Made by a program: the position numbers and the translations under genes
Shown: one piece after another, positions 8,966 to 64,000 of the stretch
Numbering within the stretch: the stretch's first letter is position 1
How the letters are laid out: the number at the start of each line of letters is the position of its first letter
Notes under the pieces: model-generated
What the model was told of the DNA's origin: nothing
Seen by the model: the letters and a program-made list of their open reading frames with translations, nothing else
Databases searched by the model: none
Source of the DNA: Orobanche coerulescens
Taxonomy: Eukaryota; Streptophyta; Magnoliopsida; Lamiales; Orobanchaceae
DNA: 64,000 nt
Assembly: GCA_033398695.1 (NCBI GenBank)
Contig: CM065811.1
Span: 115,057,501-115,121,500, forward strand
Reading direction: 5' to 3'

Positions 8966-11350
8966 GGTAATACCCGGTTGTAATTCAGTCATTATCATTC
9001 AATAATTTCATTCGGTAATTGTCTCTATGTAATTTTTCACTTGTTATAATCATTCATCTGTGTTCACCATTCGGAATAACTTCGAGTTGTGTATCGATAT
9101 TGTTCATTGTTTCAACCTTACTCGGGAATCGAAACAAGAGTATTATCATAATTGTTGTAATTGATTCATTAGTCGATGTTGACGTTGGAATTCATGTCAT
9201 TTCAGATCTTTTCATTGTTCAAATCGTGTTTTTGTTGGACGAACCCTTGTAATCATTGCTTGGAACCACCGTTTTGGGGTTTCCGCACTTCCATTTCGTG
9301 TTATTGTTTCCGAAATACTGATTCCTATTGCTTTTATTCCCTCCCCGGGTCATTTTTCATCATTTTAGGACCCAAGGGGGCATGGGCCGCGGCACACACA
9401 TTTTTCCAGTATTGGCCGAGCAGCCTGTACCGTGGGCCGCGGCACATGCCGGCAGGGCCGCGGCACACTGTCGAGTCATTGCCGCGGCACACCCGTCCGG
9501 GCTGCGGCACACTCGTGTTGCAATTTTTGGCCGACCCGTCTGTACCGTGGGCCCCGGCTCATGCCGACAGGGCCGCGGCACACTGCCGAGTCACTGCCGC
9601 GGCACATTCGTTCGGGCCGCGGCACACTGCCGATCACTGGGGGCAGTTTTGGCCCTGTGCCGCGGCACACTTCGACTGGGCCACGGCACACAGTGCAGTC
9701 AGCACTATAATTGCGTTTTTTCAGCGAGAAAAAATCATTCTTTCCCATTTCTTCAACCTACACGAGAGAGAAGGCTTGAGGGATAGATTTTTCCTTCATC
9801 TATCACTTGAGTACTTGGTTTTCTTCATCTCCTTTCAATCTTGAAGCTCGAATTGTGGATCTAACGCGATTTCATCGGATTAAAGTACTTGGATCTTCAA
9901 AGGTAATATTCATCAAACCTCTTGGATTTCGATTTTGTATAGAGATATGATGTTTTGGATGTTAAGATCATGTTGTATGAAGTGATATACGCATGATTAT
10001 GGACATGTTTGATTATTCATTGGATTATTGAAGGATTATTCAAGAATACTTTGAATATTGTGTTGGATTTGGGGGTTTTCGATTAATTGTTGTTGAAATC
10101 GCGATTTTGGATATTCATAATGGATTATTGATCGTATTGAAGATATTTTGTTGGTTTGAAACACTTCTTGGGGATTTGATGTTGGTATTATTGAGGTTTG
10201 GTTATAAACAATCGAAGTTTGGCCACAAAGTGTTCGATATAATGCCCCAATGAACTTGGTTTAATCGTATCGACGTTTTGAGTTCATTATATTCGTGTTT
10301 GATTCGTATATTGAATGGATTGTTGGTAATTGTATTATTCAAGGTTGTTCGAGCGACCGATATCTCAATTAGGACGTTGTTCGTGGAAGGATAATTGTCA
10401 CCGGTGTTGTGTAAGTTAATTCTTACCCAGTTAAAAGGATATTCATTCCTTTTGTTGTTGTTCATTCATAATCATAATTCATTCATAAGGTACTAACCGT
10501 TTCAAAACTTGTAATTGTCACTTAATTACTTCATTCACGAGGAACGACGGTTCCAATCATTTCATTGAGCTGTCATTCATTTCACCATCATTTCATCTTG
10601 GTGAGTCATTATTCATTTTTGATGTCACTTTTGTTATATCGTGGCATTCCGGGTCATACTGGCGTGCCGGTTGGTATGTGTAGAATTTTCATGTCGGGCA
10701 CATTTAAGTCGTGTGTTGGTTGGTGGCCTCACATTGGACTGTGCACACGATTTGATGGCTTCGTGAGACTGATTAGGTACAAGACCACACGTGTATTCGA
10801 TCGATACTCGTTGGTGGCTTGTGCACGGACACATTTCCATCCCGGGCGTAGTGTGGCACCATTCCTTTGAGCCGTACTGTTAGTTGAGTCATATAGCATG
10901 TTTGATTGCGTATGTTTCGGCATGATTGTGTATATTCAACTCTTGAGGATTGTTGTTCTGTGTAACTGACCCCGTTTGGGGATTTTGTTTTCAGGTCATG
11001 GCAAGGCAAAAGCACGAGAATAGCATGTTGACGGCGAGGAGTCCCAGTGATACTAGTAGGGGGCCCAAATCCTTTCAGTCATTCCTATTGTTGTCATTTA
11101 TTTTCCGCTGCATATTTTCATTTGGTTACTCCGTTTCATTCAGTGTTGTGTATTTTATCTTCATATAAAATATACTAGTATTCGGTATTGTCCTGGTGTT
11201 TTATACTTAAACTCCTCATCGGAGTAATTATTGTTGTAATGTGGTTCGGTACTACATTTATCCTGTGTAATTCATTCATTTTGATTCGCCTAGTGGGTCC
11301 CAGTCGGGGGTCCACGGCACTGTAATATCCGCCTAGTTTGGGGTGTTACA
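8966..11350 (+). mobile_element. Solo LTR of family D (2385 bp) with perfect target-site duplication
   Basis: Starts GGTAATACCCGG (expected TGTAATACCC, first base changed) and ends TTTGGGGTGTTACA. It is flanked on both sides by TTCAG (8961-8965 and 11351-11355), a 5-base target-site duplication. There is no internal region, so it is a solo LTR left by recombination between the two LTRs of one element. The U3 holds an array of GCCGCGGC palindromes (9380-9690) followed by a TATA-like CTATAATT at about 9702. The 3' end carries CTGTAATATCC and GGGGTGTTACA, shared with families B, C and E. Ty3-gypsy type is inferred from the termini. Open frames inside are fortuitous. Confidence 0.9.
9380..9690 (+). 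repeat. GCCGCGGC palindrome array in U3 of family D
   Basis: Eleven copies or near copies of GGGCCGCGGCACA lie in about 310 bases, for example near 9386, 9433, 9457, 9479, 9500, 9571, 9594, 9615, 9657 and 9677. Two larger blocks share the order CCGTGGGC..., CATGCCG.CAGGGC..., CGAGTCA.TGC, so part of the array arose by duplication. The core CCGCGG is perfectly palindromic. The array ends just before the TATA-like box. Confidence 0.9.
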
Positions 11351-11630
11351 TTCAGCACTATCTAAACTGCTTTTTAAATTGGGCTTTTTTCATACTGCAT
11401 ATCAGTTAGTTAGGCAAGATAGTTAACTTTCAAAATAAATTGGTAGTATAAATTTATATATTATTCATTTATTTATTTTTGAAATATATAATATTCAGCA
11501 CTATCTAGAATGCTTTTTAAATTGGGGTTTTTTCATACTACATATCAATTAGTTAGGCAAGATATTAATTTTTAAATAAATGGGTAGTATAAATCTATAT
11601 ATTATTCATTTATTTATTTAGTTAGACAAA
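11351..11630. repeat. Repeat units 2 and 3 of the about 140-bp array
   Basis: Two direct tandem copies of the unit seen at 8830-8965. Each holds CACTATCTARA, GGCAAGATA and ends in TATTCATTTATTTATTT. They are AT-rich and non-coding. Confidence 0.75.
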
Positions 11631-16278: not shown

Positions 16279-16735
16279 TTTAGTGGTATGTGTGTGAGGT
16301 AGCGCACACTACATACTCTTCTTAGTGCGTGCTAATGGAGTACAGGTAGCGCACCCTATCGCTTAGTATTAACGCACGCTAGCGCAAGCGAGGCTGACAG
16401 TCCAGAAGGTACTGGGCTGATTTGGGAAATTCGTAGTGCACGCTACAAGTGGTAAGTAGAATACACTAATTGTGCTGGCAATGCATGCTAAGGCATAAGA
16501 GTAGCGCATGCTAACGCGAGCAGGGCAGAGGACAGTAGGTTCTGGATGCCAGTTGCTGGGTATCGAACATCAGTTAGCGCACGCTAACATTTTGGGTTAA
16601 CGCACGTTATCAGAAGGCGTTAGCGTACACTACCAAGTTCATAGCGCACGCTAACGAAGCAGTCAGAGCTCACTGGACTGCCCAGTAACCCGCTAGCGCA
16701 CGCTAAATATCAGGACATAGCGCACGCTAAACTGG
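16279..16735 (+). repeat. TAGCGCACGCTA quasi-palindrome array in U3 of family G
   Basis: About 13 copies of TAGCGCACGCTA or close variants (TAACGCACGCTA, TAGCGCATGCTA, TAGCGTACACTA) in both orientations over 460 bases, ending just upstream of the TATA-like box. Many differences are C-to-T or G-to-A at CpG. The same motif is used by family B LTRs. Confidence 0.85.
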
Positions 16736-18257: not shown

Positions 18258-18701
18258 GGGTAAGTTTGGGGAGTTTGAAACCTTCGCAGTTGACTTCCCA
18301 ACACCTACAGTTCAGTAGGTCAACAATCATTGGGTGATTTCATTATGGGTAAGTTTGGGGAGTTTGAAACCTTCGCGGTTGACTTCCCAACACCTACAGT
18401 TCAGTAGGTCAACGGTCACTGGGTGATTTCATTATGGGTAAGTTTGGGGAGTTTGAAACCTTCGCGGTTGACTTCCCAACACCTACAGTTCAGTAGGTCA
18501 ACGGTCCTGGGTGATTTTATTATGGGTAAGTTTGGGGAGTTTGAAACCTTCGCATTTGGCTTCCCAACACCTACTGTTCAGTAGGTCAACGGTCTCTGGG
18601 TGATTTCATTATGGGTAAGTTTGGGGAGTTTGAAACCTTCGCGGTTGACTTCCCAACACCTATAGCTCAGTAGGTCAACGGCCATTGGATGGTTTCATTA
18701 T
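18258..18701 (+). repeat. Five tandem copies of an 89-bp unit
   Basis: Units start at 18258, 18347, 18436, 18524 and 18613. Each reads GGGTAAGTTTGGGGAGTTTG, then a TTCGCGGTTGACTTCC core, CACCTACAGTTCAGTAGGT and a TGATTTCATTAT end. Unit length is 89, 89, 88, 89 and 89. CCTAC and GTAGG form a short inverted pair in every unit. High similarity between units indicates recent amplification within the LTR. Confidence 0.95.
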
Positions 18702-18889
18702 GATATGGCTTCGTGCCGTGGCTTCGGCCCTTACTGTGATACGGCTTCGTGTCGTGGCTTCGGCCCTTATTGATATAGCTTCGGGCTGTTTTGGCTTCAG
18801 GTGATTGTGTTGATTGACAGTTTCGGTTGAGTGGCTTTCAGGCCTTTGTAATGCCTTGGTAATTTCATTGGAGTCTTCGGCAATGTGAA

Positions 18890-22039: not shown

Positions 22040-24932
22040 TATAACACCCCCAATCCACTCAGGGATATTACACGCCGTAGACCCCTTTCCACAAGGAGCT
22101 ACCAGGTGGAAGACTACAAATCAAAACCCACATGCGGTCAACTTGACCAAAACATAATACCGTAGACCGATTAGGTCTCTCAGAACACAGCATAACCGTA
22201 CATTTGATGAATCAAATAAATACAACTCGATCACATAATCCATCCCCTCAAGGATGACAAGAACTCAACCCGACGGATCACTGACGGACAACAGACTACA
22301 ACTGTGACTAGTATCGCTGCTTTGCATCATCCTCCGAGTCAATCATGTGGTTGCTCACTCTCCAGTCAGAACACCTGGAATAAATAACAAAATCCCCAAC
22401 GAGGGATTAGCGATGGAATCGCTAGCAAGTAACCAAGCTATAAAGTTATACATCAAGAATATAACTGTTATGAAAATAACCTTTTGACAAGGTAGTAACA
22501 CGATCCCCGAGTCTAAAGTCTTTTCGAAAACATTTCCCTCAAGTGAGGATCATAGAGACAAATTCAAAACACGTTTTAAAGAATAAAGGAGGACGGCGGG
22601 GGTCTTAGTGTAAAATCATGAAAAGATTTGTAATTCTCCTTTTCAAAAGGGTTTTCTTTCAAAATCATGAAGACGATTCAATTCTCAAATAAGCCTCAAA
22701 GGAAGAACCACAAACACCAAAATAACCGGAATCCATGATTCACACAATCATAGTTCATAGATATCCAGTCAAATACTCAAATCACCTTCGTGGCCTCGAT
22801 GGGACCCATCCCGGATTAGATACCGAAAAGCAAGCTCAAACCACCCATAAGTTATCTTGACATCGTACTCGCAAGTAACGATTCTCGGAGCCCTCTCCAG
22901 ACCTACCCAATTAGATAACCTTATGGTCAAAACATATCAACTGGCCATACTCGCAAGTAACGCGCCGCCGGAGGCCTCATGGGTCCCTACCAGGTTAACA
23001 TCATTCAAACACGCCCACAAGTTATCGTGACATCGCACTCTCAAGTGATGATTCTAAGATCCCTCTCCAGACCTACCCGATTCGATAAGCTTATGGCGAA
23101 ATCATATCAACTGGCCATACTCGCTAGTAACGCGCCGCCGGAGGCCTCACGGGTCCCTACGCGGTAATATCTCAATCACCGATTATACAATAACAAGGTA
23201 TAATATTCTCTGCAATCACAAACACATGAAATTATGAGTTAATGCAACAAACACTTTCACAAAGCGTAACATTCACGTCACACCATCATCTAGTACACAT
23301 TTTAACAAGTGAACAGTACAAATATTCCACAATTTCTCGGATAACTACTCAATTCAAAATATCCATCTCAAACATAATATAACATGAGATGGTGGTTGTC
23401 ATTCTTTAAGAAATTCAAGTTACGTTCTTATTTACTTTCATAGAATCACATATTCATTTAAAAGCAAGTTACGGTCATACGTTCAATCACTATCAAGTCC
23501 ATGTTAAATTCACGATACGCTACATTCTCAAAGTATAAAGATTATAGTCAAGATACTCGCCTTAATAACCGCTACCGAATACTCCGAAGAACACGGTTCA
23601 ACCGGGAAGCTCGGACCCTGAAGAAGACAACGAACGGAAGGATTCAACCCGGGTTCCTCACAATAAGATCGACCCTAACATCATATAATTTATAAATCAA
23701 CGATCATACGAGGAAGAATAATCGTAGAACGCCCGAATCCCCCTCTAAGACCTTTTATCGGACACCTTCAAGGCGTCGATTAAGAACTCAACCAAACGAA
23801 GTATTCTTAGCAATGAAACCATGGAACAACAAGGAAACAGATAGAATACAACTTAATAATCAATAATCCTTCAATAATCTAAGTTATTACTGATCAAACG
23901 GACGAAATCCAACAAAAACCCCAATTTCATCAAAACTAGATTTTTAAGAAATCTAACCTTGATTCGGTAGATTGGAGGAGGTTATGGGATGATTGATCGA
24001 TGTTAGAAACTCAAGAACTTCGTGGATTGATAGTTGAACAACATCTCTTCATGTTCTCCAAGCCCCAACCGTGGAAAGGAAATGAGAGGAATGAGAAAAA
24101 TGGGTGTAAACCCGTCTGTTCGATCATATATATACTGCCCAGCAGCCTGCCGACCACGTATGGACGTAGCCAATCCGCCTTACGGCCGTAACTGTCCTTC
24201 GTCCGGATGCTGACCAGCACCTTACGGCCGTACCCGATCACGCCTTACGGCCGTAAGCGACATTCGTCCGGAACCTGCCTAGCACCTTACGGCCGTACCC
24301 GATCACGCCTTACGGTCGTAAGCGGCATTCATCCGGAACCTTCCTAGCACCTTACGGCCGTATCCGGCACCTTACGGCCGTAACTCGGCCAGGCGGGTCC
24401 CTGGCCCAAAACGTGCGGCCGTGACTTGGCCGTGGCCAACTCCGACGGCCCGGACGACCCCGAAACCCGAACTTGAATATGAAACGAAGATAAAGTTACG
24501 AAGTAGTCGCAAAGACGAATCCAAGCACTAAGAGAACACACGATTCCGACCATCCGAAGGCTCAAAATTCGACAACGGAAAGTAATTACCCCAAACTTTG
24601 GGAAATTACGAAAATGGCCCAAAACATCCGAAATACACGATACACGATCGAAACACCAAGCCAAAGCTCGCAACATGAATAATAACATTAAATGAACTTA
24701 CGAGAAACTCGAAACAACAGTTTCGGACGAGATTCGCAAGAATCGAACTCAAGTGCGGAAAAGCCGCTTAAGAACACAGAACTCAACAAAATAATACCGA
24801 AACGAACTCAGATGACAAAAAGTGTAGAATTAAATACTCTCGAAATAACAAAGCGATCACGAGAGAGTCGTCAAAACGGGCTCCCACCGAAAAAAAAGAA
24901 AATCACTGAAATCCGAAATTGCGGGTATTACA
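22040..24932 (-). mobile_element. 3' LTR of family C, minus strand (2.89 kb)
   Basis: On the plus strand it runs from TATAACACCCCCAATCC (expected TGTAACACC) to GCGGGTATTACA. A reversed polypurine tract (24933-24950) lies at its right edge, so internal DNA lies to the right and this is the 3' LTR. The R/U5 part (22040-24110) is almost the same as 31180-33289. U3 holds the CTTACGGCCGTAAG array (24170-24440), next to the minus-strand TATA-like GTATATATATG at about 24125-24140. The end block GGATATTACACGCCGTAGAC matches families B, D and E in reverse. Confidence 0.88.
24170..24440 (-). repeat. CTTACGGCCGTAAG palindrome array in U3 of family C
   Basis: Seven to eight copies of CCTTACGGCCGTAA or variants at about 24178, 24221, 24243, 24288, 24309, 24349 and 24368, with a divergent GTGCGGCCGTGAC at 24412. 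Spacers share GCACC and CGTCCGGA words. ACGGCCGT is perfectly palindromic. The array lies immediately upstream of the minus-strand TATA-like box. Confidence 0.9.
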
Positions 24933-26315: not shown

Positions 26316-27424
26316 TGATATGGAATTGACTAGTCTGAATAAAGAAAACGAAGCAAGGATCGACGTAAATGGCCTTACAACGCGTCATGCACGTACGAAG
26401 ACATTTTTAGACGAGAAAACGGACACAAAACGAGAAAGACCAAGGTGCCTGGTCTCGGCCGTGTCATATGACACGGCCCGTGTCATGCTATGCCGGAAAG
26501 GGCCGAACTTTCTGCCTGCCGAACTCGGCCGTGTCGTCCGACACATCCCGTGCCGAGATGTACCGGATAAGCCAAACTGACTGCCCGCAAGACTTGACCG
26601 TGTCCCGAGACACGGCCGAGTCGAACTCTTCCAGATAAGCCAAACTGACTGCCCAGACGCCCGACCGTGTTCCAGGACACGGTCGAGTCAATGTCGATCA
26701 TCCTTGTCGCGCCGCGCGGTCGAGTCACCGCCGAACGTCCTTGTCGCGCCGCGACCGTGTCAAGCGGACACTGTCGAGTCACTGCCGACCAGCCTTATCG
26801 CGCCGCAGCCGTGTCAAGCGACACGGCCCGTGTCCAGCAGCCAGCTTCCTTTGTTTATGATTTTTGTGTATTGTTTTGTCTTCCCTTTTCTTTTCTTTAT
26901 CCCTCTATTATTTGATGATGTTATCTTTATAATTTTATTTTGTTTCTTGTCTTCCTTTTCAAGATCATTTGACCTTGCTTTTGATTTCTTTACTTGATTT
27001 TGTTTTCCATTTCTAAGATCATGTGATCTTGTTGTTTTTAATTCCTTAGTTGTAAGAGACTACACACCTATAAGTAGTCTTGGTGTTTATTGTAAATATA
27101 TATGAATTGAATGTTGTTGTGAAAGAATACACTTTGTATTTCTATCCTTGGTAAATGATTTTTACCGAAACTTGATTTTTATTCGATGTGTTTTCGAGTA
27201 TTAATCCGATTGATTCTCAATAGGTCTTGAGAAGAAATCTCTTATCAAATTATAGGTCTAATTCGATAAACCCTTGTTCTTGTTCGAAATTTTCATTGTC
27301 ATTTCCAATATTACTTCCATAAAAATACACTCAAAACACCCTAGTCGTAAAAAGCCTTCCGCTATCATACACTTACGTATACTCCGACCGATACGTATCC
27401 ACTCTTCCGGGCGAATTCGTATCA
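26316..27424 (+). mobile_element. 5' LTR of element F
   Basis: 1109 bases with termini TGATATG / CGTATCA. It holds an array of CCGTGTC/GACACGG palindromes (26450-26835). Then come two AT-rich palindromes of the AAGATCA-NN-TGATCTT type (26961-26976, one base changed, and 27015-27030), and a TATA-like TATAAGTA at 27069. Confidence 0.92.
26450..26835 (+). repeat. GACACGG-CCGTGTC palindrome array, 5' LTR of element F
   Basis: At least seven paired motifs such as CCGTGTCATATGACACGG, CCGTGTCCCGAGACACGG, CCGTGTTCCAGGACACGG and CCGTGTCAAGCGACACGG, where two arms face each other across 2-4 bases, separated by words like CGAGTCACTGCCGA and TTGTCGCGCCGC. Repeated in the 3' LTR at 28985-29370. Confidence 0.9.
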
Positions 27425-27428
27425 TAAG

Positions 27429-28850: not shown

Positions 28851-29959
28851 TGATACGGAATTGACTAGTCCGAATAAAGAAAGCAAAGCAACGATCGACG
28901 TAAATGGCCTTACAACGCGTCATGCACGTACGGCGACATTTTTAGACGAGAAAATGGACACAAAACGGGAAGGACCAAGGTGCCTGGTCTCGGCCGTGTC
29001 ATATGACACGGCCCGTGTCATGCTATGCCGGAAAGGGCCGAACTTCCTGCCTGTCAAACTCGGCCGTGTCGTCCGACACGGCCCATGCCGAGATATACCG
29101 GATAAGCTAAACTGACTGCCCGCAGGAATCGACCGTGTCCCGAGACACGGCCGAGTCAAACTCTTCCGGATAAGCCAAACTGACTGCCCAGACGCCCGAC
29201 CGTGTTCCAGGACACGGTCGAGTCAATGCCGAACGTCCTTGTCGCCCCGCGCGGTCGAGTCACCGCCGAACGTCCTTGTCGCGCCGCGATCGTGTCAAGC
29301 GGACATGGTCGAGTCACTGCCGACCAGCCTTGTCGCGCCGCGGCCGTGTCAAGCGACACGGCACGTGTCCAGCAGCCAGCTTCCTTTTTTTATGATTTTT
29401 GTGTATTGTTTTGTCTTCCCTTTTCTTTTCTTTATCCCTCTATTATTTGATGATGTTATCTTTATAGTGTTATGTTGTTTCTTGTCTTCCTTTTCAAGAT
29501 CATTTGATCTTGCTTTTGATTTCTTTACTTGATTTTGTTTTCCATTTATAAGATCATGTGATCTTGTTGTTTTTAATTCCTTAGTTGTAAGAGACTACAC
29601 ACCTATAAGTAGTCTTGGTGTTTATTGTAAATATATATGAATTGAATGTTGTTGTGAAAGAATACACTTTGTATTTCTATCCTTGGTAAATGATTTTTAC
29701 CAAAACTTGATTTTTACTCGACGCGTTTTCGAGTATTAATCCGATTGATTCTCAATAGGTCTTGAGAAGAAATCTCTTATCGAATTATAGGTCTAATTCG
29801 ATAAACCCTTGTTCTTGTTCGAAATTTTCATTGTCATTTCCAATATTACTTCCATAAAAATACACTCAAAACACCCTACTCGTAAAAAGCCTTCCGCTAT
29901 CATACACTTACGTATACTCCGACCAATACGTATCTTCTCCTCCAGGCGAATTCGTATCA
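28851..29959 (+). mobile_element. 3' LTR of element F
   Basis: Same length as the 5' LTR (1109 bases) and closely similar. The palindrome array is at 28985-29370 and both AAGATCA-NN-TGATCTT palindromes are perfect here (29496-29511, 29550-29565). It is followed by CAAAC, the right target-site copy. Confidence 0.93.
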
Positions 29960-29964
29960 CAAAC

Positions 29965-31179: not shown

Positions 31180-33577
31180 TGTAACACCCCCAATCCACTC
31201 AGGGATATCACGCCGTAGACCCCTTTCCACAAGGAGCTACCACGCGGAAGACTACAAATCAAAACCCACATGCGGTCAACTTGACCAAAACATAATACCG
31301 TAGACCGATTAGGTCTCTCAGAACACAGCATAACCGTACATTTGATGAATCAAATAAATACAACTCGATCACATAATACATAAAATGTCCATCCCCTCAA
31401 GGATGACAAGAACTCAACCCGACGGATCACTGACGGACAACAGACTACAACTGTGACTAGTATCGCTGCTTTACATCATCCTCCGAGTCAATCCTGTGGT
31501 TGATCACTCTCCAGTCAGAACACCTGGAATAAATAACAAAATCCCCAACGAGGGGTTAGCGATGGAATCGCTAGCAACTAACCAAGCTATAAAGTTATAC
31601 ATCAAGAATATAACCATTATGAAAATAACCTTTTGACAAGGTAGTAACACGATCCCCGAGTCTAAAGTCTTTTCGAAAACAATTCCCTCAAGGGAGGATC
31701 ATAGAGACAACTTCAAAACACGTTTGAAAGAATAAAGGAGGATGTCGGGGGTCTCAGTGTAAAATCATGAAAAGATTTGTAATTCCCCGTTTCAAAAGTG
31801 TTTTCTTTCAAAATCATGAAGACGATTCAATTCTCAAATAAGCCTCAAAGGAAGAACGACAAACACCAAAATAACCGGAAACCGAGATTCACACAATCAT
31901 AGTTCATAGATATCCAGTCAAATATTCAAATCACCTTCGTGGCCTCGATGAGACCCATCCCGGATTAGATACCGAAAAGCAAGCTCAAACCACCCATAAA
32001 TTAGCTTGACATCGTACTCGCAAGTAACGATTCTCGGAGCCCTCTCCAGACCTACCCGATTACATAACCTTATGCTCAAAACATATCAACTGGCCGTACT
32101 CGCAAGTAACGCGCCGCCGGAGGCCTCATGGGTCCCTACCCGGTTAACATCATTCAAACACGCCCACAAGTTATCGTGACATCGCACTCGCAAGTGACGA
32201 TTCTCGGAGCCCTATCCAGACCTACCCGATTCGATAAGCTTATGGCGAAATCATATCAACTGGCCGTACTCACAAGTAACGCGCCGCCGGAGGCCTCACG
32301 GGTCCCTACCCGGTAATACCTCAATCACCGATTATACAACAACAAGGTATAATATTCACCACAATCACAAACACATGAAATTATGAGTTAATGCAACAAA
32401 CACATTCACAAAGCGTAACATTCACGTCACACCATCATCTAGTACACATTTTAACAAGTGAACAGTACAAATATTCCACAATTTCTCGGATAACTACTCA
32501 ATTTAAAATATCCATCTCAAACATAATACAACATGAGATGGTGGTTGTCATTCTTTAAGAAATTCAAGTTACGTTCTTATTTAATTTCATAGAATCACAT
32601 ATTCATTTAAAAGTAAGTTACGGTCAAACGTTCAATCACTATCAAGTCCACGTTAAATTCACGACACGCTACATTCTCAAAGTATAAAGATTATAGTCAA
32701 GATACTCGCCTTAATAACCGCTACTGAACACTCCGAAGAACACGGTTCAACCGGGAAGCTTGGACCCTGAAGAAGACAATGAACGGAAGGATTCAACCCG
32801 GGTTCCTCACAAGAAGATCGACCCTAACATTTTATAATTTATAAATCAACGATCATATGAGGAATAATAATCGTAGAACGCCCGAATCCCCCTCTAAGAC
32901 CTTTTATCGGAAACCTTCAAGGCGTCGATTAAGAACTAGACCAAACGACAAATTCTTAGCAATCAAACCATGGAACAACAAGTAAATTGATAGAGTACAA
33001 CTTAATAATGAATAATCCATCAATAATCTAAGTTATTACGGATCAAACGGACGAAATCCAACAAAAACCCCAATTTCCTCAAAACTAGATTTTTAACAAA
33101 TCTAACCTTGATATGGTAGATCAGAGGAGGTTATGGGATGATTGATATACGTTAGAAACTCAAGAACTTTGTGGATTGATAGTTGAACAACATCTCTTCA
33201 TGTTCTCCAAGCCCCAGCCGTGGAAAGGAAATGAGAGGAATGAGAAAAATGGGTGTAAACCCGTCTGTTCGATCATATATATATACTGCAGTCGAGACCC
33301 CAGTCACAGTCCAGTGGCTCCTGGACTGTCAGTTAGCGTGCGCTAGAATCCACGTAGCGTGCGCTAACCGCGGCACAGTAGCGCGTTCTACATCACTTAG
33401 TAGCTTGCGCTACACTACAATGAACCAAAACTATCGCAACCATCTAAATCGCAACCAAACACGTGTCAAACATTGTACATCCAAACATGGCACACGATTC
33501 CAAAGACATGGACGACAACAATCTGCTAAACCGCGGAAAAATCCAATGAAACCAGAACGACGATCTCGGGTATTACA
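31180..33577 (-). mobile_element. Hybrid LTR: family C R/U5 joined to family B U3
   Basis: From 31180 to about 33289 the sequence follows family C LTR 22040-24120 closely, ending in the TATA-like ATATATATACTGC. From 33291 to 33577 it follows family B U3 in reverse (compare 56242-56540), including the TAGCGTGCGCTA motifs at 33333-33411, and ends GGGTATTACA before a reversed family B polypurine tract. The left side adjoins a family C PBS, the right side a family B polypurine tract. It therefore serves as 5' LTR for C and 3' LTR for B. The switch is at the promoter TATA region. Confidence 0.85.
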
Positions 33578-36329: not shown

Positions 36330-39300
36330 TGTAATATCCTGAAATTCTACTGCGATTGTTTAATGTTATTTTATCCGAGCTATATTGTACAGGATGGAAT
36401 CTGTGCCGTATGGATAAAATAATAGAAAGATTGAGGCAAATGTACTTGTATAATTATCGTATTTGGTTGACAATTACAATAGAGGATATCGTGTATCAGG
36501 TCATCGCACTTTTGATATGAGGTATATCGTATGAGAATACTATTGGATTCAGTATATGTATTCAGTAAGTGTATATGTGTTTTCGGTATGTCGAGACAGG
36601 CAGTAACAGTTGAAATTGGTTAAGTATAGAATACTTAGCGTACGCTAATGTTGAAGACTTACGTACGCTAAATCAAAAGATTTACATACGTTATGGCCGG
36701 AACATTACGTACGTAACATGGGAATCAGACGATTGAGTCATGGTTGGTAGGTGGGACCCTATGTCGGCAGCTTTCGGCGGAGGATGTGGACAGCGAGTCA
36801 ACCTCGGCCATTACGTACGTTATGCATGGCGTATTACGTACGTAATGTGGGTAGTACTGTAGCAAGTCAACGTACATGTTACGTACGTTATTAAGGAAAC
36901 ATTACGTACGTAAGCATGTTAACAAAACAGTTCAGTTAGTTCTGGGATGATGATTACGTACGCTATGTGGGACGAATAGCGTACGCTAAAGTGCATTACG
37001 TACGTTAATGATGAAGGATAACATACGTAATGAGTTATGCAGTTTAATATAATGAAGTTCGTCTTTCATTTCACTTCAGCTTTCCTTTTCATTTTTTCGT
37101 CTCCAAACTTTGAGAGAGAGAGAGAGAGATGTTGGCCTTCCTAAGTCGATTTTGAGCTTGAGGACTTGGACTTGAGGCTTGGATATGGAGCTATGGATGA
37201 TTCTTGAAGTGTTTTCTAGTGTTTTTCATCTTCTAAGAGGTATGTTGGATAATCCTCCTTTTCATTTCGGATTTTTGATGTTGTTATTGATAAATGATTC
37301 GTATGAAGAGGATTAAGATGTTGTTTTTTCGATTCTTGAGGTTATATGAATTATATGTTGAAGGAAGATGGTGATATGATGGTTTATACCTTGAATATGT
37401 TGATTATGATTATGAAATCATAGAGTTCTTGATGTTCTTGGTATTATTATCCGTATTTGATCCGTATGATGATGATTAGGGAGTTGTTGTTACAATCCTT
37501 GAGGTTATGTAGAGTGTATATTGAAGAATACGATGATTCATGACTTGGATTACGAATTGGAAGATTATATTCATGTTAAAGGATATCGAGTTATGTTGTT
37601 TTAATGGTTATGAACATGAGTTCGAATCCCTTAGTGTTCTTGAGGAACTTTTGATGAATTTAACATAGCAAGACGATCGTATATTGAATTATCAGTATTT
37701 TTAGATATGAAGATCGAATATTCGTTGGTTTTAGTGGTAGAATTCGTATGTTTATGAAATACGAATCATGATATCAATTTGGAATCCGGAAAGATTGTGA
37801 TTGTTCGTCGAATATGATTTCCTTTACGTTTGTATCCGTAATCGCATTGTGGTTTTGAGTTCGTAATTGTTTGAGTTGGATTGTCCGGACTTGTGTCTAA
37901 TCGAGATATTATGGAACCGTTGGGGTTTATTGATCGGTTGTATTGATTGATTATGATCATCGAGTTGTAGTTTGTATTGTAGATATCATTGAATCGTTGA
38001 GATGATTTGGTTGGTCATGTCGGTTTTTAATTGTTATTGGATATGTGTTATTTGATTACTTCGATAGGTTGAGATTATTGATCGGTGATTAGAACCGTAT
38101 GTTGCTGTCGTGTTCGAGTACGTTCGTGAATTGCGTTGGTCAGGGCCGAGGAGCTCGTAGACGAAGACAATGAGATTGGTAGCGGCTTCATCGTCATCGT
38201 ATCGGTATCGAGGCAAGTTATTACTTGCTTAGTTATAATGTTTAATGAATGGTTTCAGTTTCATTTCGTTTATAATGCATATAGCAATGATTATATGTTG
38301 TCATTCCGATTCTGGGAGTTTAATCATAATGTGTCTGATTTATTTCGGTTATTGGCATATTCGGGTATCGAGGTTACATTATGGTAAAGACCAGGATATG
38401 AGTATCTGTAGTCCATGGTATGTTTGGATCGCCGAGCATTGCGGATAATCGTCGGTGATGGTTTGATATCGAGATTTCTCCCGAAGGACTCGGGGCAAGT
38501 ATCTTATATCGATTCAGTTAGTGTTAATGATTTGATCATGCATATTGTCATTCATGTTTTCGAACATGAGGTCGTCTTATTTGATTTGTCATATTTTCGT
38601 TCATGTTGCGTTGTTCATGTTGATGAACATTTTGATTTGCATATGTGTATGCATAATTGTGTTGTTTGTGTTGTGTTGATCCGATGGGATCGTGTGATCT
38701 ATGCTGAGGGCGCTGGATCAGATGTCCACCTTGTGTTGGTCCGACGGGATCATCTTGGGATCTATGCTGAGGGCGCTAGATCATTGGACGGGTTTTTCCA
38801 CCTCGTGTTGGTCCGATGGGATCATCTTGGGATCTATGCTGAGGGCGCTGGATCGTTGGATTACCCAGTGTTGTGTTGTTTTGCATATGTATATTGTTGG
38901 TTATCCACCTCGTGTTGATCTTTTAGGATCATCTTGGGACCTATGCTGAGGGCGCTGGGTCATGGGATTTCCATTGAGTATACACTGTTGATATTGTTTT
39001 GAGCATATTGACGTGGTCATATGAGTATGCATTTGTAGGTCTTGTGTTAGGACCGTGTCCATATTGCATTGATCTGATCTCGGATTAGACTGATATGATT
39101 GTCGTGGCACTTCATATCTCGAGGTATGTTCTGTATTTCCTTTGGTATTTGTCTTTGATGGACAATCGGTTATCGTCTTGGGATTTGATGATGTTATTCG
39201 ATGGATCATTTTGGTCAGGAATGGTATATTTACGTATCGTGAGTTGGTGATGATAGTTTGATAATCTTGAGTATTGTTTGAGATACAATACAGATATTAG

Positions 39301-42460: not shown

Positions 42461-45400
42461 TGTAATATCCTGAAATTCTACTACGATTGTTTAATGTTAT
42501 TTTATCCGAGCTATATTGTACAGGATGGAATTTGTGTCGTATGGATAAAATAATAGAAAGATTGAGGCAACTGTAATTGTATAATTGTCGTATTTGGTAG
42601 ACAATTACAATTGAGGATTTCGTGTATCAGGTCATCGCACTTTTGATATGAGGTATATCGTATGAGAATACTATTGGATTCAGTATATGTATTCAGTAAG
42701 TGTATATGTGTTTTCGGTATGTCGAGACAGGCGGTAACAGTTGAAATTGGCTAAGCATAGAATACTTAGCGTACGCTAATGTTGAAGACTTACGTACGCT
42801 AAATCACAAGAGTTACGTACGTTATGGCCGGAACATTACGTACGTAACATGGGAATCAGACGACTGAGTCATGGTTGGCAGGTGGGACCTTGTGTCGGCA
42901 GCTTTCGGCGGAGGATGTGGACAGCGAGTCAACCTCGGCCATTACGTACGTTATGCATGGCGTATTACGTACGTAATATGGGTGGTACTGTAGCAAGTCA
43001 ACGTACATGTTACGTACGTTATGAAGGAAACATTACGTACGTAAGCATGTTAACAAAACAGTTCAGTTAGTTCTGGGATGATGATTACGTACTCTATGTG
43101 GGACGAATAGCGTACGCTAAAGTGCGTTACGTACGTTAATGATGAAGGATAACGTACGTAATGAGTTATGCAGTTTAATATAATGAAGTTCGTCTTTCAT
43201 TTCACTTCAGCTTTCCTTTTCGTTTTTTCGTCTCCAAACTTTGAGAGAGAGAGAGAGAGATGTTGGCCTTCCTAAGTCAATTTTGAGCTTGAGGACTTGG
43301 ACTTGAGGCTTGGATATGGAGCTATGGATGATTCTTGAAGTGTTTTCTAGTGTTTTTCATTTTCTAAGAGGTATGTTGGATAATCCTCCTTTTCATTTCG
43401 GATTTTTGATGTTGTTATTGATAAATGATTCGTATGAAGAGGATTAAGATGTTGTTGTTTCGATTCTTGAGGTTATATGAATTATATGTTGAAGGAAGAT
43501 GGGGATATGATGGTTTATACCTTGAATATGTTGATTATGATTATGAAATCATAGAGTTCTTGATGTTCTTGGTATTATTATCCGTATTTGATCCGTATGA
43601 TGATGATTAGGGAGTTGTTGTTACAATCCTTGAGGTTATGTAGAGTGTATATTGAAGAATACGATGATTCATGACTTGGATTACGAATTGGAAGATTATC
43701 TTCATGTTAAAGGATATCGAGTTATGTTGTTTTAATGGTTATGAACATGAGTTCGAATCCCTTAGTGTTCTTGAGGAACTTTTGATGAATTTAACATAGC
43801 AAGACGATCGTATATTGAATTATCGGTATTTTTAGATATGAAGATCGAATATTCGTTGGTTTTAGTGGTAGAATTCGTATGTTAATGAAATACGAATCAC
43901 GATATCAATTTGGAATCCGGAAAGATTGTGATTGTTCGTCGAATATGATTTCCTTTACGTTTGTATCCGTAATCGCATTGTGGTTTTGAGTTCGTAATTG
44001 TTTGAGTTGGATTGTCCGGACTTGTGTCTAATCGAGATATTATGGAACCGTTGGGGTTTATTGATCGGTTGTATTGATTGATTATGATCATCGAGTTGTA
44101 GTTTGTATTGTAGATATCATTGAATCGTTGAGATGATTTGGTTGGTCATGTCGGTTTTTAATTGTTATTGGATATGTGTTATTTGATTACTTCGATAGGT
44201 TGAGATTATTGATCGGTGATTAGAACCGTATGTTGCTGTCGTGTTCGAGTACGTTCGTGAATTGCGTTGGTCATGTTTAATGAATGGTTTCAGTTTCATT
44301 TCGTTTATAATGCATATAGCAATGATTATATGTTGTCATTCCGATTCTGGGAGTTTAATCATAATGTATATGATTTATTTCGGTTATTGGCATATTCGGG
44401 TATCGAGGTTACATTATGGTAAAGACGAGGATATGAGTATCTGTAGTCCATGGTATGTTTGGATAGCCGAGCATTGCGGATAATCGTCGGTGATGGTTTG
44501 ATATCGAGATTTCTCCCGAAGGACTCGGGGCAAGTATCTTATATCGATTCAGTTAGTGTTAGTGATTTCATCATGCATATTGTCATTCATGTTGTCGAAC
44601 ATGAGGTCGTCTTACTTGATTTGTCATTTTCGTTCATGTTGCGTTGTTCATGTTGATGAACATTTTGATTTGCATATGTGTATGCATAATTGTGTTGTTT
44701 GTGTTGTGTTGATCCGATGGGATCGTGTGATCTATGCTGAGGGCGCTGGATCAGATGTCCACCTCGTGTTGGTCCGACGGGATCATCTTGGGATCTATGC
44801 TGAGGGCGCTAGATCATTGGACGGGTTTTTCCACCTCGTGTTGGTCCGACGGGATCATCTTGGGATCTATGCTGAGGGCACTGGATCGTTGGATTACCCA
44901 GTGTTGTGTTGTTTTGCATATGTATATTGTTGGTTATCCACCTCGTGTTGATCTTTTAGGATCATCTTGGGACCTATGTTGAGGGCGCTGGGTCATGGGA
45001 TTTCCATTGAGTATACACTGTTGATATTGTTTTGAGCATATTGACGTGGTCATATGAGTATGCATTTGTAGGTCTTGTGTTAGGACCGTGTCCATATTGC
45101 ATTGATCTGATCTCGGATTAGACTGATATGATTGTCGTGGCACTTCATATCTCGAGGTATGTTCCGTATTTCCTTTGGTATTTGTCTTTGATGGACAATC
45201 GGTTATCGTCTTGGGATTTGATGATGTTATTCGATGGATCATTTTGGTCAGGAATGGTATATTTCCGTATCGTGAGTTGGTGATGATAGTTTGAGAATCT
45301 TGAGTATTGTTTGAGGTACAATACAGATATTAGGTTCGAGTTTATTGGTTAATCAAGTACGAGATGTGAAATGTGATAATGGTTATTCTGATGAGAATGA

Positions 45401-54439: not shown

Positions 54440-54515
<76 letters not shown>

Positions 54516-56241: not shown

Positions 56242-56397
56242 TGTAACATCCGAGATCTTTGTTCTGGTTTTGTTTAATTTTTCTGTGGTTTAGCAGATTG
56301 TTGTCATCCATGTCTTTGGAATCGTGTGCCATGTTTGGGTGTACAATGTTTGACACGTGTTTAGTTGCGATTCAGATCGTTACGTGAGTTTTGGTTC

Positions 56398-56760
56398 ATT
56401 ATAGTGTAGTGCACGCCACTAAGTAGTGTAGCGTGTGCTACTGTGCCGTGGTTAGCGCATGCTACGTGGATTGTAGCGCATGCTAACTAGCAGTCTGGAG
56501 GCAGTCCAAGAGCCACTGGACTGGGACTAGGGTCTCGATAGCGCACGCTAGCGCTTGTGGTTAGCGCACGCTATCATTTGTCTTAGCGCATGCTATTTAT
56601 CCTTTTTAGCGCATGCTACCTTGAAGGTGCAGAACTATCCAGAAGCTACTGGACTGGGTCGGCAGGTCTCAATAGCACATGCTAACGACTGTAGTTAGAG
56701 CACGCTGACTGTATGTGTTTTGTTAGTGCACGCTACTCCTCAGTATTAGCACACGCTAAT
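56398..56760 (+). repeat. TAGCGCACGCTA array in U3 of the family B LTR
   Basis: About 12 copies, for example TAGCGTGTGCTA, TAGCGCATGCTA, TAGCGCACGCTA, TAGCACATGCTA and TAGCACACGCTA. The other LTR (62085-62440) has the same layout, with more copies in the TAGCGCACGCTA form. Spacers carry inverted words such as GTCCAAGAG-CCACTGGACTGG. Confidence 0.92.
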
Positions 56761-56761
56761 C

Positions 56762-56783
56762 TGTCCGGTATAAAAACCGGACA
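56762..56783 (+). promoter_or_regulatory. TATA box inside a perfect 8-bp inverted repeat
   Basis: Arms TGTCCGGT (56762-56769) and ACCGGACA (56776-56783) flank ATAAAA, so the TATA box TATAAAAA spans the loop and arm edge. It lies directly after the palindrome array and is the likely core promoter of family B. In the second LTR the left arm is changed to TATCCAGT while the right arm is kept. Confidence 0.75.
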
Positions 56784-58949
56784 ACAGTCGTATTTGTTCA
56801 TTTCACGTTCTTTTCCTTTCCTCTCCATGGGTGTGAGTCAAGAGTTCCTAGGGTTGATAATCTTGGTCAATTTTTGCTCCATCCAAGGTGTTTTGGAGTA
56901 TCCTAGGTGATTATAACATCACCTAATCTACTGTTCTTAATCGGATCGAGGTAATCCATTGATTTTCATTGAGTCGACCATTTTGTAGATTTATTTCTCG
57001 TTTCCAGTCCAATTTTGATGAATCTACTGGGGTTAAACATTGTTGTTCATCATATTCCATGGATTGTATATCCATAATTCCGGCTTGTTCAACTCGATTG
57101 GTGATTCGAGTGTTCTTGAGGAACCATGAGCATTTAATGTTCGATTAAATGTTCGTATGAGTTTTTCTTCGTTAGTTTGAGATGATTTCCATTGTTTGGG
57201 GTCTTGCACCTCGTTGTGATCGTGTTTTCGTTGTTTCTTGCGGAAGTTGTAGGTTTCTAGGCACTTCGGCCGAGCCGTGTTCGTCTGGGTATTTGTGGGC
57301 CGATTTCGAGGCAAGTATCTTGCCCATACACTTCGTGTTCCGTAGACGTAATAGTTGGTAATTGATTATATGTGCAATTTGAATGTTTTTAATGAACTCC
57401 TAGAAAGGATCGGTATATTCTCGATAAAGGTTTTCCTACAAAGATAACTCGTATGCTTTGTGAACAAATGTATGTTTCGGAATATGTGTATTAGTGTTGT
57501 ATGTGGAGGGTGTTGTGATCATATTACGTTATTATAGTATGTCTTTCCTTTCACTTGTCAAGGATTGTGTGTTAGTATGTGTACTCCTTTGATAAATATG
57601 TGATGTTGTGTGATATTAGTTGTTACTCCTTGTAAGGAAGTTGTGATGCTCAGTGTTGTTTGGAAATGGTACTTCCTAGTTGTTGTGTGATTGTTGTAAA
57701 GTAATGTGACACAGGGTAAAATTTGTTGAATCTAATGGATCCGTCCTTGCTAGTACGGATCGGGCGTGATCATGGGGTTATCCAATCGGGTATGTCTTGC
57801 GGAGACTCTGAGGTTCGTGGCTTGCTAGCCCGATGCCGAGATAAGTTGTGGGGTTATCTAAACTGGGTATGTCGATGCGGAGACTCCGAGGTTCTTAGCT
57901 TGTTAGCGCGATGCCGGGATAACTAATGGTTGTGGTTTGGTTGTGTGGCGTATGTGTCATGGGTTGTCTAATCGAGTATGTCTCGCGGTGGCTCCGGGGT
58001 TTGTGGCTTGCTAGCCCGATATTGAGATAACTATGAACGTATGTCATGGTTGTGGTTACGTGACTGTGGTCACGGTGACATGTGATATTGTGTGGTTTAC
58101 CATTGGGTTATTCACTCGGGTATGTTCTGTGGGAGCGTCTGAGGTCTATGGCTTGTTAGCACGGGACGCGAGTAATTCTTGGGAATATTTGATATGTATG
58201 ATTGGGTCGTGGACCCCGTGTTTTGTGATCGGGTTTGATTTTTGGAAAATGTTCTCTGGGCTGTGTCCCTAAGTGGTTTTCAATAAGATGAAAATTCTTA
58301 AATTCCAAATGTTTTTCAAACTACCGACATCTTAAACTGTTTTTCAAGACATATATTGATTTCCTTCCTACCTTACATGGTTTGAACGGTTTTAATCAAG
58401 TGAAGTATCTCGGGAAGTCTTTGTTATGATTAACTGGTTGGATGTTCTCGATTGTTATGTTTTCGGAATATGTGTTGTATGGCTCGTATTTGCACTTTAT
58501 ACTTGCACTAGCAAAACAGTGGAGTTTTGCTAACCCTCGAGTAATCGGGGGGTGGATGTCTGTATTGCGTCCACGTACATGCAGGTTCTAGGGAGGAAAA
58601 TACAGGACCGGTACAAAGGATGATGGAAGACGACGATACCAATCACATAAAGACCAGTGGTGAGTATTTTGGTCAAGGAATTTTGTGGTGTCTTTTCCAC
58701 TGTTGTATTTTCTGATTGTAAGAGTATAGTTCGTGTATTTGAACCTGGTTTGGGTTTGAGTGGTATCAGAGTTATGTGTGTCTGGTTTGTATATCGTGAT
58801 GAAAGACCAAATCGGTCTAAATGGTTCGTTATTTAGCCATGTCGACATGTAATGTGATGTATTGTTTTAGTATTTAGCCTGGTAGGTCCTCACGGAGATG
58901 GTCTGTGGCGCTGTAATATTCCCCAGTGGTTTGGGGGTGTTACAGAATA

Positions 58950-59883: not shown

Positions 59884-59972
59884 AGTTAGCGCACGCTAAG
59901 TATGAAGCTAGCTAGAGCTAATGTAGCATGGCTAGCGCACGCTAAATATCTGCTGTAGCGCGCGCTAATCAG
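59884..59972 (+). repeat. TAGCGCACGCTA motifs in the family B leader
   Basis: TTAGCGCACGCTAA, a degenerate TAGAGCTAATGTAGC, CTAGCGCACGCTAA and GTAGCGCGCGCTAA within 90 bases, about 170-255 bases before the gag ATG. They match the U3 array motif and also occur in the B2 copy (53748-53835). Confidence 0.85.
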
Positions 59973-60138
59973 TCTAGACAGAAGCCATGGAGCTACATAT
60001 TGTCCGTTAGGTATAATTTTTGTGATCGTTAGGCCGATCATCTGTGACCGTATTCTATGTGTGTTGTCTAGTGATGACAATTGTTGTGTGTGAATATGTG
60101 TTATGATTTTTGATTGTGCTAGGTGGTTACTTGTTAAT

Positions 60139-61205: not shown

Positions 61206-61921
61206 TCTACCAGTTGTTTGTTTTGTTATTTCCTTGTTTCGTTGTTTCGAATTTTGGGGGAAAACTTATTTAATTAGAAGCGGATCTGATTTTTGAACTG
61301 CTGTATTTTCAATTTTATCGACTCGTTTATGTTCGTTGATATTTTCTGAACTTGTTCTATTCTTTGTTTTTGTTGTTCGAGCGAGTTCTGATATTGTTCG
61401 GATTAATCCATTTATCTTTGTGACTTTTTCCGAGTTCGCTGCGATTCCCATAACCCGATGCGAATGAATATCTTGTAGTCCTTACAAGACCAGTTCATGT
61501 CTTGAGTGAGGTGTAAACTTCGGCGTTGTTGTTCGATCTTACTGTTCAATCATTATTGTCCTATTGTTGTCGTTTGATCTCGTATCATGATTATTGAGCG
61601 TCTGAACCTTTTCGTAATTTTCCAGAGTTCCAACTGATGGTCTTGGTATCGGATCTTCCAAATCTTTGGGGCTATTGGGATTTCATACTTGTTAGACTTG
61701 TGTTTTGGTCGTTGTGCTGTTCGGATTAATCTATCGTAATGTTGTTGCTCGTTGCATTTCGTTATCCCTCTTGCGTAGCAAATTGGACTGTAGCAATTAT
61801 GTCGTTCATGTGGTTTGTTGTGAGCCGTCAGCAACAGATAACGGGTGTTATCCAGAGTTGCCCTGCCTTGACTGTTCCATGTTTTAAGTTTCAGGACGAA
61901 ACTTATTTTTAGAGGGTAGAA

Positions 61922-64000
61922 TGTAATACCCAAGATCTTCGTTTCGGTTTCGTTGAATTTTTCTACGGTTTGGTAGATTGTTGTTGTCTATGTCTTTGGA
62001 ATCGTGCTCCATGTTTGGGTATACAATGTTTGACACATGTTTGGTTGCGATTTAGATCGTTGCGTGAATTTTGGTTCATTGTAGTGTAGCGCACGCTACT
62101 AAGTGGTGTAGCGCGCGCTACTATTCCGCGGTTAGCGCACGCTACGTGGATTGTAGCGCACGCTAACTGGCAGTCCGGAGGAAGTGCAGGAGCCACTGGA
62201 CTGGGACTGGGGTCTCGATAGCGCACGCTAGCGCTTGTGGTTAGCGCACGCTATCATCTGTCTAGCGCACATTATTTGTCCTTTTTAGCGCACACTACCT
62301 GGAAAGTGCAGAATTGTCCAGAAGCTACTGGACTGGGTTGGCAGGTCTCGTTAGTACACACTAACGACTGTAGTTAGCGCATGCTGATTGTATGTGTTTC
62401 GTTAGTGCACGCTACTCCTCAGTATTACTGCACGCTAATCTATCCAGTATAAAAACCGGACAGCAGTCATATTTCTTCATTTCATGTTCTTTTCCTTTCC
62501 TCTCCATGGGTGTGAGTCAAGAGTTACTAGGGTTGATGATCTTGGTCGATTTTTGCTCTATCTAAGGTGTTTTAGAGTATCCTAGGTGATTAAAACTTCA
62601 CCTAATCTACTGTTCTTCATCGGATCGAGGTAATCCATTGATTTTCATTGAGTTGACCATTTCATAGATTTAGTTCTCGCTTCCAGTCCAATTTTGATGA
62701 ATCTATTGGGGTTAAATGTTGTTGTTCATCATATTCCATGTATTGTATATCCATAATTCCGACTTGTTAAACTCGATTGATGATTCGAGTGTTCTTGAGG
62801 AACCATGAACATTTGATGTTCGATTAAATGTTCATATGAGGTTTTCTTCATTGGTTTGAGACGGTTTTTGTTGTTTTGGGTCTTGCACCTCGTTGTGATC
62901 GTGTTTTTGTTGTTTCTTGCGGAAGTTGTAGGTTTCTAGGCACTTCGGCCGAGCCGTGTTCGTCTGGGTATTTGCGGGCCGATTTCGAGGCAAGTATCTT
63001 GCCCATACACTTCGTGTTCCGTAGACGTAATAGTTGGTAATTGATTATATGTGCAATTTGAATGTTTTTAATGGACTCCTAGAAAGGATCAATATATTCT
63101 TGATAAAGGTTTTCCTCCAAAGATAACTCGTATATTTTTTGAACAAATGTATGTTTCTGAATATGTGTATTATTGTTGTATGTGGAGGGAGTTGTGATCA
63201 TATTACGTTATTATATTATGTCTTTCCTTTCACTTGTCAAGGACTGTGTGTTAGTACGTGTACTCATTTTATAAATATGTGATGTGTGATATTAGTTGTT
63301 ACTCCTTGTAAGGAGGTTGTGATGCTCAATGTTGTTTGACATGGTACTTCCTTATGGTTGTTTGATTGTTGTAAAGTGATGTACCATCGGGTAAGATTTG
63401 TTGAATCTCTGGGATCCATCCTTGCTAGTACGGATTGGGCATGACCATGGGGTTATCCAATCGGGTATGTCTTGCGGAGACTCCGAGGTTCGTGGCTTTC
63501 TATCCCGATGCCGGGATAACTTGTGGGGTTATCCAAACCGGGTATGTCGATATGGAGACTCCGAGGTTCGTAGCTTGTTAGCGCGATGCCGGGATAACTT
63601 ATGGTTGTTATTTGGTTGTGTGGCATACGTGTCATGGGTTGTCCAATCTGGTATGTCTCACGGAGGATCCGAGGTTCGTGGCTTGTTAGCCCGATGCCGG
63701 GATAACTATGAACGTATGTCATGGTTGTGGTTATGTGACTGAGGTCATGGTGACATGTGATATTGTGTGGTTTCCCATTGGGTTATTCACTCGGGTATGT
63801 TCTGTGGGAGCATCTGAGGTTCGTGGCTTGTTAGCACGGGACGCGAGTAATCCTTGGGAATATGTTGATATGTATGATTGGGTCGTGGACCCGGTGTTTT
63901 GTGATTGGATTTGAATTTTGGAAATGATCTTTGGGCTGTTTCCCTAAGTGGTTTTCGATAAGATGAATAATCTTAAATTCCAAATGTTTTCAAGCTCCCG
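61922..64000 (+). mobile_element. 3' LTR of the plus-strand family B element, cut by the window end
   Basis: Starts TGTAATACCCAAGATC after the polypurine tract AGAGGGTAGA and follows the LTR at 56242 for 2079 bases. The palindrome array is at 62085-62440 and TATAAAAA at about 62448. About 620 bases, including the U5 end, lie outside the window. Confidence 0.92.

Follow-up and report, generated by a model that had tools for sequence, protein, structure and literature searches.

The DNA analysed here is C11:115057501-115121500, a 64,000-nucleotide window of plant DNA from Orobanche coerulescens (genome 3.65 Gb) that consists largely of nested long terminal repeat (LTR) retrotransposons. LTRs of six families, termed B to G, carry rows of short palindromic sites in the upstream U3 region, and the strongest signal in these arrays, which the original prediction overlooked, is a fixed site-to-site distance. 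On the basis of site form, pitch, position and recurrence in the genome, we consider it probable that the arrays are proximal-promoter operator arrays of Del/Tekay-like Ty3/Gypsy LTRs, bound by a dimeric trans-acting factor that is probably a host protein. Palindrome arrays before a TATA box are already known from Sireviruses; what appears to be new is the Del/Tekay-like host, the pitch and the grouping of sites in fours.

Palindromic sites and their pitch in the window

The arrays stand where the original prediction had placed them. In an unbiased search with all 4,096 12-bp palindromes, controlled by 100 dinucleotide shuffles per array region, the site counts were 10 in D, 10 in G, 12 in both E arrays, 9 and 8 in B, 7 in C, and 4 and 5 in F, compared with a shuffle maximum of 3. 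When the window was scanned in 400-bp stretches, every stretch with at least five copies of one non-AT-rich 12-bp palindrome overlapped an LTR U3 array, and the remaining stretches with at least five sites had AT-rich palindromes. The predicted 7-13 copies per LTR are reached if two to three mismatches are allowed (D 12, G 15, E 12 and 13, B 12 and 12, C 9, chance overlaps included). Exact copies are fewer, with GCCGCGGC present eight times in D, CTTACGGCCGTAAG once, TTACGTACGTAA 3 + 3 times, and TAGCGCACGCTA four times in G and two and five times in two B LTRs. At no more than one mismatch, 36 B/G sites lie in arrays and none in the 61,065 other bases; by the same measure the arrays hold 24 E, 7 C and 10 D sites, as against 0, 1 and 4 elsewhere.

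In B, G, E and C the sites follow one pattern, TWRCG-N2-CGYWA, in which the main point of variation is the 2-bp centre, usually CA in B and G, TA in E and GC in C. The D site is GTGCCGCGGCAC-like. The motif GACACGG/CCGTGTC proposed for F is weak as a 12-mer (4 and 5 sites) and is better described as a dyad with a free centre, CCGTGTY-N4-GACACGG, present in 4 and 5 copies in the two LTRs with differing N4.

Neighbouring sites in the window are 19-24 bp apart in 40 of 55 cases, compared with 10.3 expected by random placement, and these 40 spacings average 22.4 bp (standard deviation 1.3). This count leaves out second copies (E 3', B 5' and a chimeric LTR) and three sites removed by hand as chance overlaps or too degenerate (D 9584, G 16380 and C 24424); with the three put back, the figure is 39 of 58. 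Exclusion of tandem duplicates gives 29 of 39 spacings in this range against 7.1 expected, and strict sites give 18/30 for B/G, 16/22 for E, 3/6 for C and 6/9 for D.

The sites are mostly grouped in fours. On the plus strand, the B arrays at 56407..56758 (LTR 56242-58944) and 62087..62437 (LTR starting at 61922 and running past the window end) consist of three quartets with spacings of 22/24/21, 23/21/23 and 23/28/23, and the G array of TAGCGCACGCTA sites at 16300..16729 (+; LTR start 16076) of three quartets and one pair. In D (9385..9690, +; GCCGCGGC core; solo LTR 8966-11350), two quartets spaced 21/24/20 adjoin single or paired sites. The array in the 5' LTR of E (36636..37030, +; LTR 36330-39942) has 12 sites with 7 of 11 spacings exactly 23 bp, and the E array opens with a quartet spaced 23/23/23 and closes with one spaced 23/19/23; its counterpart in the 3' LTR (42461-45975) lies at 42767..43161 (+). 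The C array of TTACGGCCGTAA sites at 24158..24424 (-; LTR 24932-22040 on the minus strand) is built of pairs 20-23 bp apart that recur about every 65 bp. The F arrays lie at 26457..26836 (+; 5' copy, LTR ~26317-27427), where the first dyads are 67-70 bp apart and are accompanied by CGAGTCA words, and at 28992..29371 (+; 3' copy, LTR ~28852-29962).

Among seven B/G modules compared, the spacers are 35% alike (random 34%) and the sites 80%, a similarity that arises partly by construction, as sites were picked by similarity; the pitch is free of this bias. A fixed distance combined with free spacer sequence points to proteins lying side by side on DNA. B and G modules also share a further box past the fourth site, near CAGTCCAGAAGCTACTGGACTG. 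As to the words that the spacers were said to reuse, CGAGTCA stands: 14 of its 20 plus-strand copies fall in the arrays or in a cluster at 900-1110 (together 3,623 of the 64,000 bases), the count on the minus strand is 0, and it is a second word common to D, E, F and that cluster. The case is weaker for GCCGACC (4 of 8 copies in arrays or cluster, both strands) and for GGCAGC (5 of 11).

Except in F, the arrays end close to a TATA-like box, as predicted. Measured from the last site with loose patterns (CATAAAT in G), the distance is 17 bp in D (box at 9706), 12 in G, 16 in E, 10 in B (box at 56769) and 24 in C, where the box is 45 bp from the last good site; F has no TATA-like box close to its array. 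The B TATA box is itself situated in an inverted repeat at 56762-56783, TGTCCGGT-ATAAAA-ACCGGACA, which is less perfect in the other B LTR.

The array-bearing LTRs resemble those of Del/Tekay elements. Families B, C, E and G start with TGTAATACCC, TGTAATATCC or TGTAACATCC and D with GGTAATACCC, so that all five have the Del/Tekay-type 10-bp U3 start resembling TGTAACACCC, and wherever the end is visible these LTRs terminate in GGGTGTTACA or similar. Their lengths (D 2385, B 2703, C 2893, E 3613 and 3515 bp) fall inside the Del/Tekay range of ~1.1-4.8 kb. F is another kind of element, with an LTR of ~1.1 kb and a different start, TGATACGG or TGATATGG. D is a solo LTR flanked on both sides by TTCAG. 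The window copies that bear arrays showed no Gypsy pol. The internal part of E contains no frame of 200 amino acids on either strand (longest plus-strand stop-free stretch 104), and B retains only gag-like pieces, with a zinc knuckle slightly below the Pfam cut-off (20.4 versus 20.8 bits). A protein search with one gag-like piece gave no match.

Recurrence of site types across the genome

The original prediction took each motif as specific to its family. The genome-wide counts do not bear this out. Same-orientation pairs of TAGCGCACGCTA, 13-43 bp start to start, occur at 251,942 places in the genome (126,697 + 125,245), compared with 0 for a reversed control. Among the matches listed, 87 of 100 are spaced at 23 or 24 bp; these 100 come from the beginning of the first contig only and include LTR pairs that are not independent. 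Converging pairs, with the second site inverted, number 25,860 (47 of 50 among the matches listed at 23-24 bp) and E-type pairs 26,663 (37 of 50 among the matches listed). CTTACGGCCGTAAG is found at 11,452 places, again with a reversed control of 0. Close B-type pairs were also sought in viral contigs, and none came up.

We also drew an even sample of 20 stretches of 10 kb (200 kb), 11 Mb apart on one contig. It holds 32 arrays with at least five CpG-containing palindromes, of which 19 are of the TWRCG type, 5 of the D type, 2 of the F type and 6 others, most of them AT-rich. The 261 TWRCG-type sites, defined by at most one mismatch from the pattern, give 206 spacings within the counted range of 12-150 bp; of these, 132 fall at 19-24 bp, with 102 at exactly 23 bp. 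Of the 132 corresponding spacers 105 are distinct, and similarity among the 78 different ones of 11 bp is 27%, compared with 25% expected.

The LTR start TGTAATAYCC is matched with enough downstream sequence at 27 sample places (1 was skipped), and 15 of them have at least five sites in the next 900 bp, versus 26 of 200 random stretches of the sample. Visual inspection removed nine of the 27, which a preceding ctacggcg and the like marked as LTR ends; 2 of these have five sites. Among the 18 LTR starts, at least five sites are present in 13 and at least four in 16, although not all 18 are independent, since four in one sampled stretch (L031) look like mutual copies and two in another (L020) likewise. 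The arrays of the 13 begin ~170-390 bp from the LTR start, and in 8 of the 13 a TATA-like word follows 11-18 bp past the last site found. A lack of arrays in most copies, the outcome that the original prediction had set against itself, was thus not observed in this small sample. Among the inverted and E-type pairs listed there are 4 different LTR starts, 3 of them with sites. A further 14 loci each have an array of 7-18 palindromes but, having been picked by motif, do not count as evidence.

These data also bear on the idea that the arrays are functionless local duplications of a short unit. Longer tandem units do occur in some of them (115 bp in D, 65 bp in C), but spacer similarity is at chance level while sites and spacing are retained, and in 13 of the 18 sampled starts the position of the array within the LTR is the same. 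We regard neutral tandem amplification as very improbable, and as a sole cause it was rejected, because spacers are at chance similarity while sites and pitch persist.

Motif types moreover cross family borders. Two of the 50 listed E-type places, identical in sequence, have a C-type site between E-type sites, and the F-type motif appears in two sampled LTRs with a TGTAATAYCC-type start (short steps of 18 bp in 4/8 spacings in L034 and 1/5 in L024), so that the F type is not confined to F. The view that each family has its own private motif was rejected on three grounds: genome-wide reuse, the types in the sample and the E/C mixture. A further motif, TCCGGATAA-like with spacings of 22 and 45-46 bp, is carried by L023 (minus strand, from 6844), a sampled LTR that shares this start.

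Half-sites, promoter position and a probable dimeric factor

In E, the halves CGTAA, CGTTA and CGCTA are freely mixed, and the second pair from outside is complementary in no more than 5 of the 12 sites. When left halves are re-paired at random with right halves, they match about as well as in the observed pairing in all 7 site sets (p 0.25-0.98), in a test of low power in which one set has 4 sites, three sets come from B and sets are partly related. The centre pair is complementary in only 0-25% of the sites in the B and G sets. Mixed halves and random re-pairing fit base pairing less well than a dimer whose subunits each read one half, and the missing covariation favours a dimeric DNA-binding protein over RNA pairing. 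Of the roles originally proposed, protein binding is the one that the independently varying dyad halves, the fixed pitch and the place beside the TATA box support.

We therefore propose, as a conditional model, that the arrays act as upstream activating operators in the proximal promoter of Del/Tekay-like LTRs. Each palindrome would bind a protein dimer through half-sites in which CG precedes several variable bases (CGYWA in the families B, G, E and C). Adjacent dimers, most often 23 bp or about two helical turns apart, would probably touch, often in fours, and the factor bound up to the last site, 10-24 bp from the TATA-like box in five Del-like window families, would activate transcription. 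Such a factor would have to act in trans, because element E lacks a 200-residue reading frame. Because E has no long frame and a handful of motifs serves unrelated families, the factor is more likely to be encoded by the host than to be a private protein of the element. The original suggestion of a private protein co-evolving with each family is not supported, because few motif types recur in very many elements with unrelated spacers; the C-type site in 2 of 50 listed E-type places adds to this. No plant transcription factor suggested itself consistently for the half-sites of all types, and none is claimed.

A related possibility, which we judge unlikely, is that an autonomous relative encodes a VANC-like DNA-binding protein that coats the arrays and lifts silencing, the motif types being dialects of different proteins. 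VANC targets are likewise noncoding motif arrays that differ from one related element to the next and expand by tandem duplication, according to the part of the source consulted (PMC5735166), and several motif types coexist here; but the array-bearing window copies contain no candidate gene (E without a 200-residue frame, B with gag-like pieces only), the same motif occurs with unrelated spacers in many LTRs, and E and C motifs stand together in one array.

The palindromes might instead function in RNA, either structurally within the genomic RNA (hairpins, dimer contacts) or as a source of small RNAs, as proposed for maize Sireviruses. The arrays do fold better than shuffles, and palindrome-cluster regions of maize Sireviruses draw excess small RNAs, as the consulted part of a 2023 report has it (PMC10760457). 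Against this stand the lack of covariation described above, the 7 of 12 E sites that are not self-complementary at the second pair from outside, the rarely complementary B/G centre, and a fixed 23-bp pitch with random spacers, which suits helical DNA over RNA. RNA dimer sites, also among the roles first suggested, are accordingly not favoured, and an RNA function as a whole seems to us decidedly unlikely.

A last alternative is that CpG content or methylation itself is selected and the array sequence is irrelevant. The arrays are indeed CpG-rich, with 5.3-13.1 CpG per 100 bp compared with 3.5 elsewhere in the window, but specific 12-bp words, dyad symmetry and pitch are retained, and CpG transitions after insertion are not significantly rarer in arrays (23/242) than at other LTR CpGs (61/484, p=0.27). 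This near-equal frequency likewise gives no support to symmetric methylation as the purpose of the arrays, and we hold the CpG explanation to be highly unlikely. The GC content of the E array is 0.43-0.45, the usual CpG-island threshold being 0.5; the other arrays form a CpG-rich stretch directly before the TATA box, except F, which has no TATA-like box nearby. Differences between LTR copies of E, F and B affect 83 of 1,227 array positions versus 229 of 5,477 in the rest (p=0.0002), and 66 of the 83 and 152 of the 229 are transitions. Resident copies thus appear to decay, CpGs included, and clean sites would stem from selection in multiplying copies. The CpG observed/expected ratio is ~1.0 in both the window and the 200-kb sample, yet LTR copies show clear CpG transitions.

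Several points weigh against operator arrays bound by a dimeric factor. Folding of array RNA is stronger than that of shuffled sequence (z -2.4 to -6.4, as against -1.9 and -2.1 in two control stretches). The TAGCGCACGCTA centre is non-palindromic and its orientation mostly single, with 251,942 direct and 25,860 converging pairs in the two classes counted, which a perfectly symmetric dimer does not require. Five of the 13 sampled array LTRs have no TATA-like word within 80 bp, although two of these reach the end of the examined stretch. C alone is weak on pitch (4/7, p=0.02; 2/4, p=0.13 without duplicates), and the F type departs from the 23-bp pitch, with steps of 18-19 bp and ~67-70 bp.

A bolder version of the operator model, which we consider doubtful, would have hundreds of thousands of LTR promoters in the genome, a number extrapolated from 26 arrays of three types in the 200-kb sample and the 251,942 exact pairs, read by one dimeric protein family, possibly element-derived, through a small set of operator 'dialects' that can replace one another. 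The 23-bp pitch would then build a cooperative filament in fours that activates the promoter and excludes nucleosomes or methylation, and elements would compete by swapping array modules. If one factor does read so many promoters, it would be a main retrotransposon switch in a large plant genome, and its loss or silencing would bear on genome growth.

Known systems and neighbouring features

Viral activators such as EBNA1 and papillomavirus E2 bind, as dimers, palindromic sites set in rows before a promoter at near two-turn spacing. The resemblance is functional only and homology is not claimed.

The original prediction knew of no described system of this kind. Yet Sireviruses (Ty1/copia) were reported in 2010 to carry palindromic repeated motifs before the TATA box, each element with its own sequence in at least eight copies (Bousios et al. 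2010, PMC2829016). In the part of that report consulted, the motifs begin 200-400 bp into the LTR within a CpG island, the TATA box follows on average 37 bp past the island, some elements have extra internal copies, and 12 of 13 published motifs contain a CGG-CCG core. The present arrays are similar in their many palindromes, their place in the upstream LTR half before the TATA box and their CpG richness; at least eight copies are present, with mismatches, in D, G, E, B and C, and only 4-5 as 12-mers in F. The CGG-CCG core is found in C and F only; it is absent from B, G and E, and D has CCGCGG. In contrast to the Sirevirus motifs as described there, the arrays sit in Del/Tekay-like LTRs and F, with a fixed pitch, groups of four and one motif across so many LTRs. 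As to Sirevirus membership, the LTR starts are Del-like and no pol was found in array-bearing copies.

Del LTRs, in turn, open with 10 bp that in sorghum and maize most often read TGTAACACCC, span 1.1-4.8 kb and have plastic, fast-changing 5' CpG islands, none of which was found in the eudicot Del group of that study (Cruz et al. 2014, PMC4029996, as far as the consulted part goes). The LTR start type and the CpG-rich, variable 5' stretch agree with this description; unlike it, and the word palindrome is absent from that part of the text, the stretch here can be broken down into palindromic sites set at a regular pitch. VANC/VANDAL (Hosaka et al. 2017, PMC5735166) resembles the present case in its short noncoding motif arrays that differ between relatives and grow in tandem, but concerns DNA transposons and a known, element-encoded protein, and palindromes are not mentioned in the consulted part. 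A literature search, which had most subscription papers outside its scope, brought up no account of Del/Tekay or other Gypsy LTRs with arrays of this kind, nor of a fixed pitch or groups of four in such arrays. The older descriptions of Sirevirus palindromes and 'plastic' Del CpG islands now become testable, in that half-site, pitch and group size define a binding assay, and motif sharing between families offers a route to study promoter sharing or exchange among elements.

Two features of the window touch on such exchange. When D and G are aligned, the first ~115 bp of the LTR and R/U5 are 64-86% identical, and the stretch between is near chance along its whole length. Motif replacement between conserved flanks may account for this, but the comparison is suggestive only, because the near-chance stretch spans the whole interval and not the array alone. 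In a chimeric LTR at 33577-31180 (minus strand), a B U3 (from 33577) with a single B quartet at 33334..33423 (-) is joined near 33290 to the C TATA, R and U5 (to 31180), so that the junction lies at the array-TATA border. A promoter-module swap is possible, and the chimera could have originated by a template switch or a later deletion.

Sites also occur outside LTRs. An extra B quartet at 59887..59967 (+) is situated in the leader, ~170-250 bp upstream of the B gag-like ATG, and recurs, diverged, in a minus-strand copy near 53750. Two more F-type dyads (1009 and 1069) lie with CGAGTCA words at 925..1105 (no strand assigned), beside a minus-strand primer-binding site at 1390.

Element E is a full element inserted between copies of another LTR (34713-36221 and 51461-52966). 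Those LTRs have no CpG palindrome arrays, and copia pol pieces lie between them; a protein search with a copia piece gave 1,979 matches, and among the 120 listed the named organisms are eudicot plants, except one labelled E. coli. The B and E LTRs share a second repeat zone downstream of the TATA box (57773-57922, 63447-63604, 38671-38860 and 44722-44893) with units of 72-78 bp. The short F element has an acidic reading frame at 27784-28485 (+), 3' of a gag-like stretch and with no Pfam match. Elsewhere in the window, an 89-bp tandem unit is repeated five times at 18256-18702 with 93% matches, and a 523-residue open frame at 3340-4911 (+), also with no Pfam match, is very acidic and repetitive in its first half.

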